Shown: one piece after another, positions 3,718-54,556 of the stretch
How positions within the stretch are numbered: the stretch's first letter is position 1
Layout: every line of letters starts with the position of its first letter
The notes under the pieces: model-generated
Databases searched by the model: none
What the model was told of the DNA's origin: nothing
What the model saw: the letters and a program-made list of their open reading frames with translations, nothing else
Origin: Prevotella sp.
Lineage (GTDB): Bacteria; Bacteroidota; Bacteroidia; Bacteroidales; Bacteroidaceae
DNA length: 64,000 bases
Direction: 5' to 3'
NCBI GenBank assembly: GCA_017475265.1
Contig: JAFVFY010000072.1
Coordinates: forward strand, 1-64,000
Made by a program: the position numbers and the translations under genes

Positions 3718-3727
3718 CACCGTCATT

Positions 3728-3852
3728 AGCCCCCTAAGTTAGGGGGATGGGGGTCTGAACGGACCAAAAGCAAAATGGGAAAGTGATTTTTTTACATTAT
3801 TATTAATTAACGGGTGGTCGTTCAGACCCCCAACCCCCTAACTTAGGGGGCT
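3728..3852. repeat. 125-bp inverted-repeat element (REP/MITE-like) in the cysK leader
   Basis: The arms 3728-3761 and 3819-3852 are reverse complements over 34 bases with one mismatch. Each arm begins with a nested palindrome (CCCCCTAAGTTAGGGGG) followed by (A/T)TGGGGGT and CTGAACG. The 57-base centre is AT-rich and non-coding. There is no transposase. The same arm plan (short palindrome, then TTGGGGGT) occurs in the element at 49589-49701. Confidence 0.85.
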
Positions 3853-3868
3853 TAAAAAGGTAAGGATT

Positions 3869-4816
3869 ATGAGTAAGATTGCAAAGCAGCTGACCGAGCT
3901 CGTCGGCAACACCCCACTTCTGGAGCTCAACAAGTATTCAACGGCAAAGGGTCTGGAGACCCCAGTCATTGCCAAGGTAGAGTTTTTCAATCCCGGCGGC
4001 AGCGTGAAGGACCGCATCGCGCTGGCCATGATAGAGGACGCGGAAGCTAAGGGCATCCTGAAGCCCGGCGCCACCATCATCGAGCCAACGAGCGGTAACA
4101 CGGGCGTAGGACTGGCACTGGTATCGGCCGTCAAGGGTTACCATCTTATCCTTACCATGCCCGAGACCATGAGCGTGGAGCGCCGCAACCTGGTGAAGGC
4201 CTACGGGGCCGAGGTGCGCCTCACCTCTGGAAAGGACGGCATGCCTGGTGCCATCCGCGCCGCCGAGGAGCTGCGCGACTCGATTCCCGGAGCCGTCATC
4301 CTGCAACAGTTTGAGAACCCCGCCAACCCTGCCAAGCATTACGCCACCACGGGTTCTGAGATCTGGCGCGACACCGACGGCAAGGTGGACATCTTCGTAG
4401 GCGGTGTGGGTACCGGCGGCACCATCTCGGGTACGGGCAAGTACCTGAAGGAGCAGAACCCCAACGTGAAGATCATCGCCGTGGAGCCGAAGTCAAGCCC
4501 CGTGCTGAACGGCGGACAGAGCGGCCCGCACAAGATTCAGGGCATCGGCGCCGGCTTCATCCCCAAGACTTACGATGCCGCCATCATCGACGAAGTCTTC
4601 GACGTGGAGAACGACGATGCCATCCGCACTGGCCGTGAGGTGGCCCAGCAGGAAGGCCTTCTGGTTGGTATCTCAGCAGGTGCCGCCCTCTTCGCCGCCA
4701 TCGAGGTGGCCAAGCGTCCTGAGAACAAGGGTAAGAAGATTGTGGTGCTGTTGCCCGACACCGGCGAGCGCTACCTCTCCACCGTGCTCTACGCCTTCGA
4801 GGATTATCCCCTTTGA
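3869..4816 (+). CDS. cysK: Cysteine synthase A (O-acetylserine sulfhydrylase)
   Basis: This is a pyridoxal-phosphate enzyme that makes L-cysteine from O-acetylserine and sulfide in the cytoplasm. The 315-residue length is normal for CysK. Visible motifs are the Schiff-base lysine in [11 protein letters not shown] (about residues 37-47), the substrate loop PTSGNTG, the phosphate-binding [10 protein letters not shown] and the C-terminal [12 protein letters not shown]. The gene has its own promoter, but an inverted-repeat element lies between promoter and start, so the mRNA leader should fold into a long hairpin. Its last 13 bases overlap the end of the convergent transporter gene. No other sulfur-metabolism gene is adjacent. 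Confidence 0.97.
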
Positions 4817-5918: not shown

Positions 5919-6689
5919 ATGAACAAGATTCATGCTTTGGCAGTGGTAGACCCTGAAGCCATCCTTGGCGATAACAACGTGATAGGTCCCTTCTGCGTGA
6001 TAAACAAGAATGTTGTCATAGGCGACAACAACAAGTTCCTCAACAGCGTCACCGTGCACGAGGGTGCCCGCATTGGCTCGGGCAACGAGTTCTTCCCTGG
6101 TGCCAGCATCGCTACCAAGCCCCAGGACCTGAAGTTCCAAGGGGAAGAGACCATCTGCGTGATTGGCGACAACAACAGCATCCGCGAGAACGTCACCATC
6201 AGCCGTGGAACAGCCTCAAAGGGTAAGACCGTCGTGGGCAACGGCAACCTGCTCATGGAGAACATGCACATCGCCCACGACTGCGTCATTGGCAACGGTT
6301 GCATCATCGGCAACTCGACGAAGTTCGCCGGCGAGGTGGTGGTCCACGACAACGCCATCATCTCGGCCGAAGTGCTGGTACATCAGTTCAACAACATCGG
6401 TAGCTACGTGATGATACAGGGCGGCAGCCGAACCAGCCAGGACATTCCACCATACATCATCGCGGGTAAGGAACCCATACGCTTCGCCGGTGTGAACCTC
6501 ATCGGACTGCGTCGCCGAGGCTTTGCCAACGAGACCATTGAAATGATTCACGATGCCTACCGCATCATCTACGCACAGGGAATACTGAAGGACGGTATTG
6601 CCGAGGCACGCACGAAGTACCCTGATTCGAAGGAAGTGGAATATATCTGCTCGTTTATCGAGTCATCAAAGCGCGGCATCATCCGTTAA
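5919..6689 (+). CDS. lpxA: Acyl-ACP--UDP-N-acetylglucosamine O-acyltransferase
   Basis: LpxA catalyses the first step of lipid A synthesis in the cytoplasm. The 256-residue product is a left-handed beta-helix of hexapeptide repeats (IGDNNVIGPF, IGSGNEF, IGNGCIIGNS). The catalytic histidine is in NMHIAHDCVIGN (about residues 120-131), followed by VHQFNNIGSYVMIQGG and the C-terminal helical segment beginning GVNLIGLRRRGF. In many Bacteroidales lpxA follows lpxD and lpxC/fabZ; here it stands with its own promoter, and rho follows. The TAA stop is the first part of an 11-bp tandem array that fills the whole gap to rho. Confidence 0.97.
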   Translation: MNKIHALAVVDPEAILGDNNVIGPFCVINKNVVIGDNNKFLNSVTVHEGARIGSGNEFFPGASIATKPQDLKFQGEETICVIGDNNSIRENVTISRGTASKGKTVVGNGNLLMENMHIAHDCVIGNGCIIGNSTKFAGEVVVHDNAIISAEVLVHQFNNIGSYVMIQGGSRTSQDIPPYIIAGKEPIRFAGVNLIGLRRRGFANETIEMIHDAYRIIYAQGILKDGIAEARTKYPDSKEVEYICSFIESSKRGIIR

Positions 6690-6817
6690 CTCCCCCTTAA
6701 CTCCCCTTTAACTCCCCTTTAACTCCCCCTTAACTCCCCCTTAACTCCCCCTTAACTCCCCCTTAACTCCCCTTTAACTCCCCCATAACTCCCCCTTAAC
6801 TCCCCCTTAACTCCCCT
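6686..6817. repeat. Tandem array, 12 copies of an 11-bp unit (TTAACTCCCCY), filling the lpxA-rho gap
   Basis: Twelve consecutive 11-bp units, TTAACTCCCCC or TTAACTCCCCT with one ATAACTCCCCC, start inside the last sense codon of lpxA (the stop TAA is part of unit 1) and end 9 bases before the rho ATG. Because 11 is not a multiple of 3, the TAA in each unit rotates through all three forward frames. Confidence 0.95.
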
Positions 6818-18186: not shown

Positions 18187-19767
18187 ATGGACAAGAGTGA
18201 CATAAGGAAACTGTTACAAAAGGGCGAGCGGTTGACACTGGAGGCTAAACTGGCTAAAACAGATGTGCCTAAGTCGGTTTGGATGAGTTACTCAGCTTTC
18301 GCAAATACGATGGGCGGAACAATTCTGTTGGGCGTTTTTGAGGATTTGAAGGAGAAAGACCCGTCAAAGAGGTTTCGGATAGAAGGTGTTGATGATGCCG
18401 AAAAGATTCGTAAAGACTTCTGGAATACCATCAACAGTAATAAGGTGAGCGACAACATTCTGACGGACAATGACGTAGAAGTTGTGGATGTGAATGGTAA
18501 GTATGTTGTATGTATTCATGTGCCGATGGCAGATTGGCATGTAAAACCTGTCTATCTGAATGAGAATGTCTATAAGAATACGTACAAGCGCAATCATGAG
18601 GGTGACTTCCATTGCACGGAACAACAGGTGAGGGCAATGATTCGTGACTCCTACGAGGGAGGAAACGACGGAGCTCTGATGGAGCATTACGACATGGATG
18701 ACATTGATCCAGACACGCTGCGTAGATACCGCACATTATTTCAATTCAGAAATGAAGGACATGTTTGGAATGAAGTGGATGACAAGACCTTCCTGAAGAA
18801 TCTTGGTGGCTATATCGTTGACCGTGAAACTGGAAAAGAGGGATTGACAATGGCAGGCCTGATGATGTTTGGCAAGGGGCTTTCGATACAAGAGCGGTTT
18901 GCCAACTTCAGAATGGACTACATTGACTTCTGCAATCTGATAGGTGAAGAGCGTTATAGCGACCGATTGACCTACGATGGACGCTGGGAGAACAACTTGT
19001 ATCAGTTCTTTAGCCGCGTGATTCCAAAAGTAACCTTCGACCTTCCGCGTCCATTCCGGATGGAAGGTATTCAGCGAGTAGATGACACGCCCCTGCATAA
19101 AGCAGTGCGTGAGGCATTTACCAACGCCATTATCCATGCTGATATTATGCTGGAGGCGGGGGTGCTGCGGATAGAGAAGCATGAAGACCGACTGGTTTTC
19201 CGCAATCCTGGGTTGCTGATGCTGCCCCTGAAGGACATCTATGAAGGCGGTGTATCAAAAGCCCGTAACCCCAAGATGCAGAATATGCTAAGGATGATTG
19301 GCTATGGTGAGAACCTCGGATCTGGCTTCCCAATGATACTTAGTGCCTGGAAAGAGGCTGGTTGGGGTGAGCCTATTTTGGACAACCGCTTGGATGTGGA
19401 TGAGGTCGCCTTGGTGCTCCCCATTAAAAGAATTGAAGGCAGCAACCCCAAAAGTGGCCCCAAAAGTGGCCCCAAAAGTGGCCCCAAAAGTGGCCCCAAA
19501 AGTGGCCCCAAAAGTGGCCCCAAAAGTGGCCCCAAAAGTGGCCCCAAAAACAGAAAAAGTGACCCCAAAAAGTTGTCTCCGCAGGAACGACTTGATATGA
19601 TTATAGCTATTATCAAAAATAACCCGCGAATTACTCGTAAGGATATTGAAGATATGCTTGGTGTAGGTCATACTACCATACAAAATGATCTCCGAATTTT
19701 GAAAGAACAATATGGTGTACGCTACGAAGGGCCTAGCAAAACCGGCAAATGGGTAATAGATAAGTGA
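18187..19767 (+). CDS. AlbA_2 (Schlafen-type) / HATPase_c_4 putative transcriptional regulator with PKSG repeats
   Basis: The 526-residue product has an N-terminal AlbA_2 domain (LEAKLAKTDVPKSVWMSYSAFANTMGGTILLGV, about 18-51), a central region, a HATPase_c_4-type ATP-binding region (REAFTNAIIHADIM, about 310-323; GYGENLGSGFPMI near 380), a linker of eight perfect PKSG tetrapeptides encoded by 12-bp repeats, and a C-terminal winged helix (RKDIEDMLGVGHTTIQNDL). These proteins are common in Bacteroidales and are annotated as transcriptional regulators or RNA/DNA-binding proteins; targets are unknown. The next gene, a diverged relative, starts 3 bases after the stop. Confidence 0.85.
   Translation: MDKSDIRKLLQKGERLTLEAKLAKTDVPKSVWMSYSAFANTMGGTILLGVFEDLKEKDPSKRFRIEGVDDAEKIRKDFWNTINSNKVSDNILTDNDVEVVDVNGKYVVCIHVPMADWHVKPVYLNENVYKNTYKRNHEGDFHCTEQQVRAMIRDSYEGGNDGALMEHYDMDDIDPDTLRRYRTLFQFRNEGHVWNEVDDKTFLKNLGGYIVDRETGKEGLTMAGLMMFGKGLSIQERFANFRMDYIDFCNLIGEERYSDRLTYDGRWENNLYQFFSRVIPKVTFDLPRPFRMEGIQRVDDTPLHKAVREAFTNAIIHADIMLEAGVLRIEKHEDRLVFRNPGLLMLPLKDIYEGGVSKARNPKMQNMLRMIGYGENLGSGFPMILSAWKEAGWGEPILDNRLDVDEVALVLPIKRIEGSNPKSGPKSGPKSGPKSGPKSGPKSGPKSGPKSGPKNRKSDPKKLSPQERLDMIIAIIKNNPRITRKDIEDMLGVGHTTIQNDLRILKEQYGVRYEGPSKTGKWVIDK
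19446..19541 (+). repeat. Minisatellite, eight perfect 12-bp units coding for (PKSG)8
   Basis: The unit CCCCAAAAGTGG is repeated eight times without change and is followed by degenerate units. Each unit is four codons, so gain or loss of units keeps the frame and changes only the length of the linker between ATP-binding region and winged helix. Confidence 0.97.
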
Positions 19768-48578: not shown

Positions 48579-50378
48579 TCACCTCTTTTTCTTAAGCTTT
48601 TTCATCCTGCGCTTGGCATCAGCAGCATCGGGATATAGCTCGAGTGCTTTCTCGTAGTTGCGGATGGCGGCATCGTTCATGCCTTCGTGCTCACACTCCC
48701 GGCCCATGAGGGTATACTCTGCGGCCAGTCGCTTCAGTGTTTCCTGACTTTTGGCGATGTCGGCTTTCAGAGAGATAATCTCCTCACGCTGGCGGTTGAT
48801 GATACCCAGCTTACGGCGAATATAGCGGCGGGCAACGGGTTTCTCGATGTCATAGCGACTGTGGATGGCCTTGAAGAAATTGTCTAGAAACGCCTGGAAA
48901 TCGCCTTGGTCGAAAGCTACGATGGCATCGTGATACTCACGGTCGGCCTTACCCTCCTGCATGACCTGAGCAATGAGTTGCTGGTCGTTATAGCGGCTGG
49001 CGAACTGTACCACCTCGGCACGGACGAAGATGTCCTGCTGACGGATAGGCGCCACGAGGGTGATACCCTGCAGCGACGTGCAGCGAGACAGGGCTACGTA
49101 AGTCTGACCGCCAGCGAACGCCCCACCAGTGAAGTCGATATTCACCTGCTGGAACGTCAGGCCCTGACTCTTGTGCACGGTGATAGCCCAGGCCAGGCGC
49201 AGCGGAAACTGCGTGTAAGTACCTAACAGTTCCTCCTCTATCTTCTGTTCCTTCTCGTTAAAAACATAGCGAACATTCTCCCACACCTCGCGCTCCACGT
49301 CGAAGCTGCGTCCGTCCTCGGTCTGCACACCAAGGATGCCAGCCTCCTCGTCAATATCGGTGATGGTGCCCAGCGTTCCGTTCACCCACCGCTTGTCCTT
49401 GTCGTTCTTCACGAAGATGACCTGTGCACCGGGTTTCATGCTCAGCTCCATAGGTGTAGGCATGGCCGTTTCGGGAAAGTCGCCCTTTACGATGCCATTG
49501 AAGATACTGGGACTGCCCGGCAGCTCGGCCAGCCGCTGCTCGTTGATATAGTCTACGGTGTCGCGGCGGGTGGCGAGGGTGATGCGAAACCCACCCCCAA
49601 CCCCTCCCGAGGGGAGGGGGGATAGGTAACATTTTCCATCGGAATCTTCAGCGGAAGAAGAATTTAAACTCCCCTCCCCTCGGGAGGGGTTGGGGGTGGG
49701 TACCCTCGCATTTAGCATTGCCAGGTCGGTGCCCGTTGCCCTGTTCTGCCTGATACGGTCAAGCATGGCGATAAACTGGTCGTCCTTCTGGCGATAGACC
49801 TTACGCAGTTCTATGGAGACGAGCCGCATCTCCTGCCATACCTTCGCATTGAAGAAATAGGCACTCTGATAGAAAGGCCGCAACAGCTGGCGGTCTTCCT
49901 CTTTCAGCACCGGCTCCAGCTGGTAGATATCACCCACGAGGAGCAGCTGCTTGCCGCCGAAAGGCTCGCTGCTGCGTGTATAGATGCGTAGCACTTTATC
50001 GATGAAGTCGATAATATCGGCACGCACCATCGAAATCTCGTCGATGATGATCAGCTCCACCTCTCGCAGCAGCTTACGCTGGGCACTGGTATATTTCTGC
50101 GTCTCCTTGATGTGACGACGGTCGTAGCGAGTATCATTGGGCAGCAAGGGGTGGAAAGGGAGCTTGAAGAAACTGTGGAGCGTCGCTCCACCGGCATTGA
50201 TGGCAGCAATACCCGTCGGAGCAAGGATGACGTGTTTCTTCTTCGTATGCTCAGAAACATAGCGCAGGAAAGTACTCTTCCCCGTCCCTGCCTTCCCGGT
50301 GAGGAAGAGCGAGCGACGGGTGAAGTTCACTATCTGGAGGGCATCCTGCCACTCCTTGTTCTGCAAGTCAAGTTCCAT
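48579..50378 (-). CDS. PIF1-like DNA helicase with an in-frame palindromic insertion
   Basis: The 599-residue product is a superfamily 1 helicase: Walker A SLFLTGKAGTGKSTFLRY, LAPTGIAAINAGGATLHSFF, Walker B ELIIIDEISMVRADI, LLLVGDIYQLEPV, and the C-terminal motifs AITVHKSQGLTFQQV and GGQTYVALSRCTSL. After the helicase comes a helical tail with a TPR-like NYEKALELYPDAADAKRR. About 37 residues between NARV and RITLATR (PTPNPSRGEGS to LPSGGVGGGF) are encoded by the inverted-repeat element at 49589-49701, which stays open in this frame. I start at the ATG 20 bases after the PBP1A stop. Confidence 0.92.
   Translation of the reverse strand: MELDLQNKEWQDALQIVNFTRRSLFLTGKAGTGKSTFLRYVSEHTKKKHVILAPTGIAAINAGGATLHSFFKLPFHPLLPNDTRYDRRHIKETQKYTSAQRKLLREVELIIIDEISMVRADIIDFIDKVLRIYTRSSEPFGGKQLLLVGDIYQLEPVLKEEDRQLLRPFYQSAYFFNAKVWQEMRLVSIELRKVYRQKDDQFIAMLDRIRQNRATGTDLAMLNARVPTPNPSRGEGSLNSSSAEDSDGKCYLSPLPSGGVGGGFRITLATRRDTVDYINEQRLAELPGSPSIFNGIVKGDFPETAMPTPMELSMKPGAQVIFVKNDKDKRWVNGTLGTITDIDEEAGILGVQTEDGRSFDVEREVWENVRYVFNEKEQKIEEELLGTYTQFPLRLAWAITVHKSQGLTFQQVNIDFTGGAFAGGQTYVALSRCTSLQGITLVAPIRQQDIFVRAEVVQFASRYNDQQLIAQVMQEGKADREYHDAIVAFDQGDFQAFLDNFFKAIHSRYDIEKPVARRYIRRKLGIINRQREEIISLKADIAKSQETLKRLAAEYTLMGRECEHEGMNDAAIRNYEKALELYPDAADAKRRMKKLKKKR
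49589..49701. repeat. 113-bp inverted-repeat element inserted in frame in the helicase gene
   Basis: The 31-base arms 49589-49619 and 49671-49701 are perfect reverse complements. Each holds a nested palindrome (CCCCTCCC-GAG-GGGAGGGG) and a TTGGGGGT motif, as in the cysK-leader element (3728-3852). The 51-base centre is AT-richer. There is no stop codon in the helicase frame, and helicase motifs continue on both sides. Confidence 0.95.
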
Positions 50379-53017: not shown

Positions 53018-54556
53018 ATGGAACAAGCTACATTCTTGAAAATCAACCCCGCAGACTCCGTCGTCGTCTGCCTACAGCCGAAGAAGAAGGGCGACATCAT
53101 AGAGATTGACGGAAAGACCGTGACCCTCAGCGAGGACACACCCGCTGGCCACAAGGTGCTCATCCGCGACGTGCGTCAGGGTGAGGACATCATAAAATAC
53201 GGCTACCCCATCGGCCATGCACGACAGGACATGAAGGCTGGCGACTGGGTGAACGAGAACAACCTCAAGACAAACCTCAGCGGTACGCTCGACTACACCT
53301 ACCAGCCCGTCGACGAGCCGCTCAACATCGCCCGTGAGAACCGCACCTTCAAGGGCTATGTCCGTAAGAACGGCGACGTCGGCGTCCGCAACGAAATCTG
53401 GATTGTCCCCACCGTCGGCTGCGTCAACGGCATCGCCGAGCGACTCGCTAAGCAGCTTCGGGAAGAAATTGGTTTGGAAAATGGCAACTTCAAATCCCAA
53501 ACCTCAAATCTCAAATCTCAAACCATTGACGCCGTCTACGCCTGGCACCACAACTACGGCTGCTCCCAGCTCTCCGAAGACCACGAGAACACCCGCAAGG
53601 TGCTCCGCGACATCTGCCTCCACCCCAATGCTGGTGCCGTCCTCGTCCTCAGCCTTGGCTGTGAGAACAACCAACCCGAAGACTTCATGGCCATGCTCGG
53701 CGACTACGACAAGGAGCGCATACGCCTCCTCGTCACCCAGCGCGTCGACGGCGACGAGGTGGAAGAAGGCATGAGGATTCTCCGCGAGCTCTACGATATC
53801 TGTAAGAACGACCGCCGCGAGAGCGTCCCCGTCAGTAAGCTGCGCGTAGGTCTGAAGTGCGGCGGTAGCGACGGCTTCAGCGGCATTACCGCCAACCCCC
53901 TCGTAGGAGAGTTCAGCGACTGGCTCGTCGCACAGGGCGGCACCAGCGTCCTTACCGAGGTACCCGAGATGTTTGGCGCCGAGACCATCCTCATGAACCG
54001 CTGCGAGACACGCGAGCTCTTCGACCAGACGGTCTCGATGATTAACAACTTCAAGAACTACTTCCTCTCCCACGGCGAACCAGTAGGTGAGAACCCCTCC
54101 CCGGGCAACAAGGCCGGAGGCATCTCCACCCTCGAGGACAAGGCCCTCGGCTGCACGCAGAAGTGCGGCCGTGCTCCCGTGAGCGGCGTCATGGAGTATG
54201 GCGACCGTCTTCAGCACAACGGTCTGAACCTCCTCTCCGCACCGGGCAACGACCTCGTCGCCGCCACCGCCCTCGCCTCCTGCGGCTGCCACATCGTCCT
54301 CTTCACCACTGGACGGGGAACGCCCTTCGGCACTTTCGTACCCACCATGAAGATTGCCACCAACCCTGTCCTTGCTGCCCGCAAGCCGACATGGGTCGAC
54401 TTCAACGCCGGACAGCTCATCGAGGGCCGCACCATGAAGGAGCTCGTTCCCGAGTTCATCGACAAAGTCCTCGCCGTCGCCAGCGGCGAACCAGCCCGCA
54501 ACGAAGAGAACGACTACCGCGAAATCTCCATCTTCAAAAACGGAGTCACCCTCTAA
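53018..54556 (+). CDS. uxaA: Altronate dehydratase (UxaA family)
   Basis: UxaA converts D-altronate to 2-keto-3-deoxygluconate in galacturonate catabolism. The 512-residue product has an N-terminal SAF-like domain (ILIRDVRQGEDIIKYGYPIGHA) and the C-terminal dehydratase core (FKGYVRKNGDVGVRNEIWIVPTVGCVN, AWHHNYGCSQLSEDHENT, LKCGGSDGFSGITANPLVG, FTTGRGTPFGTFVPTMKIATN). About 11 residues near 158-169 (FKSQTSNLKSQT) are encoded by a heptamer repeat, an insertion compared with the usual family pattern. Other uxa/uxu genes are not adjacent. Confidence 0.93.
   Translation: MEQATFLKINPADSVVVCLQPKKKGDIIEIDGKTVTLSEDTPAGHKVLIRDVRQGEDIIKYGYPIGHARQDMKAGDWVNENNLKTNLSGTLDYTYQPVDEPLNIARENRTFKGYVRKNGDVGVRNEIWIVPTVGCVNGIAERLAKQLREEIGLENGNFKSQTSNLKSQTIDAVYAWHHNYGCSQLSEDHENTRKVLRDICLHPNAGAVLVLSLGCENNQPEDFMAMLGDYDKERIRLLVTQRVDGDEVEEGMRILRELYDICKNDRRESVPVSKLRVGLKCGGSDGFSGITANPLVGEFSDWLVAQGGTSVLTEVPEMFGAETILMNRCETRELFDQTVSMINNFKNYFLSHGEPVGENPSPGNKAGGISTLEDKALGCTQKCGRAPVSGVMEYGDRLQHNGLNLLSAPGNDLVAATALASCGCHIVLFTTGRGTPFGTFVPTMKIATNPVLAARKPTWVDFNAGQLIEGRTMKELVPEFIDKVLAVASGEPARNEENDYREISIFKNGVTL
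53492..53524. repeat. Heptamer repeat (AAATCTC type) inside the uxaA reading frame
   Basis: AAATCCC, AAACCTC, AAATCTC, AAATCTC and a partial fifth unit follow in tandem and keep the reading frame. The unit is identical to that upstream of rplS (58454) and complementary to that before 36052. Confidence 0.92.

Follow-up and report, generated by a model that had tools for sequence, protein, structure and literature searches.

A palindromic element that lies in frame in a PIF1-family helicase gene of a Prevotella genome probably belongs to a family of palindromic mobile elements as a short, non-autonomous copy resembling a MITE; longer members of the family carry a gene for a DUF559 endonuclease. 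Relatives of the element are dispersed in the same genome, including in-frame positions in other genes, different palindromes occupy the same protein loops in related species, and DUF559 genes are specifically bracketed by inverted arms. DUF559 is the best candidate for the mobility enzyme.

Structure of the element and its host gene

The stretch of DNA that was analysed (hereafter, the window) comprises 64,000 nt of a genome of 4.75 Mb in 135 contigs (the window lies in G000:C106). Its relevant features are listed in Table 1.

Table 1. Coordinates of the palindromic elements and the host gene in the window.
Feature	Position	Strand	Remarks
Left arm	49589..49619		C-rich foot and nested stem-loop (49601-49619)
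Spacer	49620..49670		51 nt between the arms
Right arm	49671..49701		Inverted repeat of the left arm without mismatches; contains a nested stem-loop (49671-49689)
PIF1-family helicase ORF, 644 aa	48579..50513	-	Element in frame; likely true start M46, ~50378
Second arm pair, another class (CCCCCTAAGTTAGGGGG)	3719..3861		Intergenic; the ATG at 3869 follows after 7 nt

A reading of the DNA made from the sequence alone had described perfect 31-bp inverted repeats with nested palindromes around a 51-base center. Exact comparison of the arms bears this out: they are 31 nt each, 100% complementary and 51 nt apart, and the nested hairpin inside each arm reads CCCCTCCC-GAG-GGGAGGGG. For both arm patterns, the observed number of matches was never attained in the dinucleotide-shuffled window. 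The very stable hairpin expected of the RNA within the coding region is also found by folding, with an energy of -99.7 kcal/mol and a z-score of -11.5 relative to shuffled sequences. The ends of the spacer look like a short tail that comes after arms at other places in the genome. By inspection, no target-site duplication was seen at the flanks of the element.

The minus-strand ORF stays free of stops through the element and matches PF05970 (PIF1) with an E-value of 5e-30. Solved PIF1 structures align on either side of the insert; hence, the sequence-only reading was right to place the element inside a helicase frame that continues on both sides. The gap between the two aligned blocks is 11 residues in 8bnv and 40 in the window helicase. 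In an AlphaFold model built on a 21-sequence alignment, residues 275-307 have pLDDT values <50 and the residues just outside have values of ~88-90, such that the insert is modeled as disordered between well-modeled parts of the helicase. Residues 1-47 are also below 50, and the consensus of helicase orthologues starts at M46; residues 1-45 are therefore probably not translated. The insert had been expected to add about 37 residues. The core peptide is indeed 37 aa long (residues 272-308), but the net gain is smaller because most of the host's own linker, which is ~10-20 residues long in most orthologues, is absent here.

Dispersed copies and their reading frames

Searching the genome with the element gave 66 DNA matches. 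Besides the window copy, seven of these cover the full 113 nt, five at 78-81% identity and two at 70-73%. The arm pattern, allowing two mismatches or fewer, occurs 60 + 61 times, as compared to 12 + 3 times for a reversed control. We assembled 60 loci, from most of the places among the matches listed, and added the window. A scripted scan of this set found 32 facing arm pairs, three of which are single short palindromes (44-45 bp) and one of which, a 369-bp pair, is doubtful. Of the 32 pairs, 22 lie in a frame without stops that extends for 60 codons or more to each side; one of these 22 (L172) is more likely to be at a gene start on the opposite strand. The genome search that had been suggested for the arms thus found dispersed relatives, many of them in open frames.

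Genic copies are about as frequent as expected by chance and are not enriched, since 1073 of 2000 random 113-bp segments of the sampled contigs also fall in a frame that is open for 80 codons on both sides. Among nine host proteins that were scanned, UvrA, Lon, DnaG (with two copies in one gene), Mfd and a Ca-ATPase scored above the family cut-offs; the helicase and the PEP-synthase-like, OlsH-like and galacturonidase-like proteins scored below them in that scan.

The phase of the insert was tabulated for 19 genic pairs, leaving out the 369-bp pair, the three short palindromes and L172. Phase 0 of the core (PTPNPS.. / LTPDPS..) is read in 15 of the 19; these include every one of the eight elements whose core is 111 nt long, irrespective of their strand. 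On average, 2.9 of the six frames are open in genic copies, as compared to 0.75 in eight intergenic pairs, a contrast that is partly built in because genic copies are recognized by their openness and have shorter spacers. Core length was considered as proof of selection and rejected: it is divisible by three in 14 of 19 genic pairs but also in 6 of 8 intergenic pairs, and hence does not discriminate.

All eight intergenic pairs start 0-12 nt from the stop codon of the upstream ORF. In five of them, the second arm is within the downstream ORF, whose N-terminal part there is signal-peptide-like; in the other three, it ends 3-6 nt 5ʹ of an ATG. At L103, L120, L121, L157 and L014, where the pairs span from the upstream stop, the predicted arm peptide LAPLxxGGVGGG is in or next to a putative signal sequence. 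The second arm pair in the window precedes an ORF (3869-4816) that we take to be cysteine-synthase-like. The arms of this pair match those beside DUF559 in L389 at 33/35 and 32/32 nt, and the DUF559 arms in L360 match as well.

Different palindromes in the same protein loops

The closest named orthologues of the window helicase are from rumen Prevotella MAGs. Our orthologue set consisted of 86 loci (57 + 29), of which 5 were unanchored and 81 anchored, the latter including one (L060) that was mis-anchored. A segment common to all orthologues would have argued against insertion; the whole window segment is present in none of the 81 anchored loci. One orthologue (L029) has an arm of the same kind as the window's, at the right end of its insert only. 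Palindromic inserts, defined as having inverted repeats that match exactly over 9 nt or more, occupy the same loop in frame in 11 of the 81 orthologues and are of several unrelated kinds, although those in L027 and L177 are identical in sequence. Most of the other anchored orthologues have a short linker at this site. The closest orthologue (L026; 89%) has a different insert, of the GGGAGGGG type, and the insert in genome G072 (L177) is of the TTAATAGTGAACAG type. In other Prevotella (L040, L045, L027 and L042), we observed unrelated, partly tandem palindromes of the GGAGTGTGGAGTG, TTAATAGTGAACAG and GGTGGAGGG types in the helicase loop.

The pattern is similar for DnaG (at two sites), UvrA and Lon: among 29 orthologue loci each, related species have different inserts, and most have short linkers. 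In the helicase, UvrA and Lon, inspection indicates that the ancestral linker is mostly gone rather than interrupted by the element. Judged from these alignments, the missing linker points to replacement of the host linker by the element, or to insertion with later loss. The empty site lacking exactly ~114 bases that had been predicted was not found among the helicase orthologues; linker lengths vary, and the element replaces most of the linker.

DUF559 genes between inverted arms

The only DUF559 gene detected in the window's own genome (L168) lies between facing class-A arms that are 476 bp apart (C99:15693-16168), and its ORF continues in frame through an arm into a YgbB (IspF) domain. Across the genus, DUF559 is present in 87 of 150 genomes. 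To score bracketing, we set the borders of DUF559 with an HMM built for this study and required an inverted repeat with a score of at least 13 between the 260-bp flanks; shifted windows served as controls. At the 30 best-scoring places in the genus, one per genome, together with the own locus, 27 of 31 DUF559 loci are bracketed, as compared to 2 of 244 control windows. A second genus set of 20 places, picked for long fused ORFs or from G072 and sharing five places with the first set, gave 12/20 (8/15 for the new loci) against 5/157 controls. In a phylum sample of 30 loci, 12 of the 27 that were testable are bracketed (controls, 3/208). The HMM-bordered test supersedes a pilot flank test with a regular-expression border (30/31 testable), the extension of which missed many loci.

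The arms at DUF559 loci resemble those of the short elements. The right arm in the window agrees at 35/35 nt with an arm next to DUF559 in L353, and the left arm has 3 mismatches in 43 nt relative to the own-genome DUF559 arm. Arm classes C and D of the own genome match arms at other DUF559 loci, and scripted alignment of class B arms with DUF559 arms succeeded only with gaps; one shuffled query for each comparison, used as a control, gave scores of 11.5 or less. The repeat flanking DUF559 in L378 reads like class B in reverse orientation. As in a MITE, the ends of the short element are common to a longer, gene-bearing element. Beyond the tail, no origin of the short spacer in the ends of the DUF559 gene was visible: by inspection, the likeness is confined to the arms and short tails.

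DUF559 was found in 31 of 34 genomes with at least five class-A arms, in 20 of 32 with 1-4 arms and in 36 of 84 with none (Fisher p 1e-6 between the extreme classes, with genomes counted without phylogenetic correction). Hence, it was not seen in 3 of the 34 arm-rich genomes and is present in 36 of the 84 without class-A arms.

DUF559 is itself found in frame inside host proteins. Pfam matches place it in LeuRS, directly before the editing domain; in MetH, between two B12-binding domains; in HsdR, between the N-terminal and SWI2/SNF2 domains; in two DegT aminotransferases, a two-ABC ATPase (presumably ABC-F) and an AAA ATPase; and in fusion with YgbB. Several of these positions recur. In LeuRS, three genomes have DUF559 at equivalent positions (L383, L398 and L401; L398 and L401 are LeuRS-like by inspection and belong to other families), and in MetH two do (L418 and L424, the latter a MetH-like ORF by inspection). 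Two species have a DUF559 unit fused in frame to the beginning of IspF (YgbB): L168 in the own genome and, by inspection, L393 in G106. No protein-splicing (Hint) domain was found at E≤1e-5 in the eight DUF559 fusions that were scanned.

Seven acidic, His or Arg positions (E24, D55, E66, D68, H72, D81 and R84 in alignment numbering) are kept in 79-81 of 81 DUF559 domains, and this conservation suggests that DUF559 is an active nuclease. The DUF559 protein matches 3r3p, a mobile intron protein, weakly (E 0.068), which tentatively ties DUF559 to the EDxHD enzymes. The protein also matches RecA chains (E 2e-5). DUF559 has been described as a domain of Vsr-like PD-(D/E)XK endonucleases (PMC12907096), and EDxHD enzymes as a homing endonuclease family (PMC3943268). 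Judging by titles and the starts of abstracts, none of the open-access papers with DUF559 that our search listed concerns repeats.

Other repeats

Several other repeats were observed. At 53486-53522 in the window, a short CAAATCTC-like repeat is in frame, as FKSQTSNLKSQ, in an ORF (53018-54556) that is presumably altronate-dehydratase-like; this looks like another in-frame repeat family. A separate inverted-repeat family at ~78-88 kb of G000:C103 (L327-L330) encodes VVAHASQRG..LGSVTYY peptides, with several copies in open frames of adjacent genes. The window also contains tandem arrays of a 12-bp unit, CCCCAAAAGTGG (19446-19549; x8.7, 100% matches), and of an 11-bp unit, TTAACTCCCCC (6686-6816; x11.9).

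Origin of the element and alternative explanations

How might such an element arise and spread? We propose that each end of the element is an arm consisting of a C-rich foot, a stem-loop and a short tail, and that two arms face each other. In longer members, the arms enclose the gene for a DUF559 (Vsr-like PD-(D/E)XK) endonuclease; short members consist of the arms and a spacer of ~50 nt. DUF559 would drive movement, perhaps by cutting DNA that is then copied by repair, a mode that would fit replacement of the linker better than clean insertion. Copies persist in unconstrained spacers and in open-frame, variable protein loops, where they would be translated as disordered peptides rich in Pro, Gly and Ser. 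The peptide in the helicase is likely to be made and harmless.

An alternative explanation is that the element is REP/BIME-like and is spread by a RAYT (Y1 tyrosine) transposase, with DUF559 as no more than a frequent passenger. The arms do have the form of REPs, being stem-loop units that occur in many copies, singly or as facing pairs, and Y1_Tnp has three matches in the own genome and is present in 64 of 100 genus genomes. However, RAYT genes flanked by the same repeats were not found: the nested hairpin is present at none of 35 Y1_Tnp loci (32 distinct, since the three own-genome genes were counted twice), and it is DUF559 that is bracketed instead, in 27 of 31 loci. The base frequencies next to 94 arms gave no GTAG/CGTC tag 5ʹ of the hairpin and a weak GTAG-like tail 3ʹ of it. 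Mobilization by RAYT is therefore unlikely. Two Y1_Tnp loci (L312 and L322) have one lone, loose foot match each. By inspection, the Y1_Tnp gene at L154 (G000:C37) seems to be flanked by a different repeat of its own (..SPEGATDYRRGCKPPA..). It is less probable still that the insert is kept for a function in the helicase or its mRNA, as a useful linker or a regulatory hairpin, and that its mobile origin is incidental. The RNA fold (z -11.5) and the repeated occupation of the same loops would be consistent with such a role, but the corresponding site in related species has either a short linker or palindromes of other, unrelated kinds, and the insert is disordered in the model.

We give very little credence to the idea that the insert is missing from the mature protein, whether by translational bypass or by RNA or protein splicing. 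The great stability of the RNA hairpin could favor skipping, and untranslated coding palindromes are described for a yeast mitochondrion (PMC6649704). Yet skipping would call neither for inserts that keep an open frame in the helicase loop of different species nor for the preference for one phase, and the fusions that were scanned have no reported splicing domain. Formation of the palindromes in place, by template switching or local repeat expansion, is just as improbable. Some same-loop inserts are tandem-like (L040 and L045) and an exact empty site was not found, but the same arm sequences occur at many unrelated loci in the own genome and in others. We therefore favor a short, non-autonomous copy of a DUF559-associated palindromic family as the probable origin of the helicase insert.

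Comparison with known systems

The sequence-only reading likened the insert to the palindromic elements of Rickettsia (RPEs), in a different phylum, and the related copies dispersed in frame in other genes agree with this. RPEs are palindromic inserts of ~100-150 bp that are translated in frame in unrelated, often housekeeping, proteins (PMC10969869, PMC6649704). The Prevotella elements are likewise in-frame palindromic inserts in unrelated proteins, with translation predicted from the frames; they differ in phylum and in the associated nuclease gene. Their sequences are presumably also different from those of RPEs.

Intragenic REPs with GTAG/CGTC tags and associated RAYTs form facing stem-loop units in genes that include uvrA, and in two Xanthomonas species, different REPs have been reported at nearly the same position in recB (PMC3733652). 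The Prevotella arms are similar in forming facing stem-loop units inside genes, including that for UvrA, but differ in the absence of the tag from the REP position, in the absence of hairpins beside RAYT genes and in the association with DUF559. MITEs are likewise short and non-autonomous, and a longer relative that carries a gene has matching inverted ends; here, in contrast, the candidate autonomous gene encodes an endonuclease rather than a known transposase, and no target-site duplication was seen. With Vsr-like/EDxHD homing endonucleases, the DUF559 units appear to share a nuclease domain with conserved catalytic residues. They differ in being surrounded by palindromic arms and in not being in an intron or intein, with no splicing domain reported. 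Perfect inverted repeats in translated coding sequence are also described for mitochondria of Nematomorpha (PMC6649704), where both arms encode conserved residues in place; those of Prevotella are dispersed inserts in variable loops.

Coding palindromes are thus a known kind of sequence, since RPEs and intragenic REPs are already in print. Within the open-access literature that we searched, we found no precedent for the Prevotella families described here, for loops that are occupied repeatedly, and on such a scale, by different palindromes or, most notably, for DUF559 units with the same arms on either side. With rather less confidence than we have in the origin of the helicase insert, we lean toward regarding DUF559 palindromic units as a class of mobile element undescribed in that literature: an arm-bracketed Vsr-like endonuclease that would enter coding sequence in frame, remain there in translated, unspliced form (in LeuRS, MetH or HsdR even with the nuclease domain complete) and seed swarms of short coding palindromes such as the one in the helicase.

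Significance

We know of no mobilizer of protein-coding palindromes such as RPEs. An endonuclease that is linked to coding palindromes is a testable candidate for this role. The families described here also provide a natural record of protein loops that tolerate insertions, and they suggest a route by which bacterial proteins may gain disordered linkers and even whole nuclease domains.
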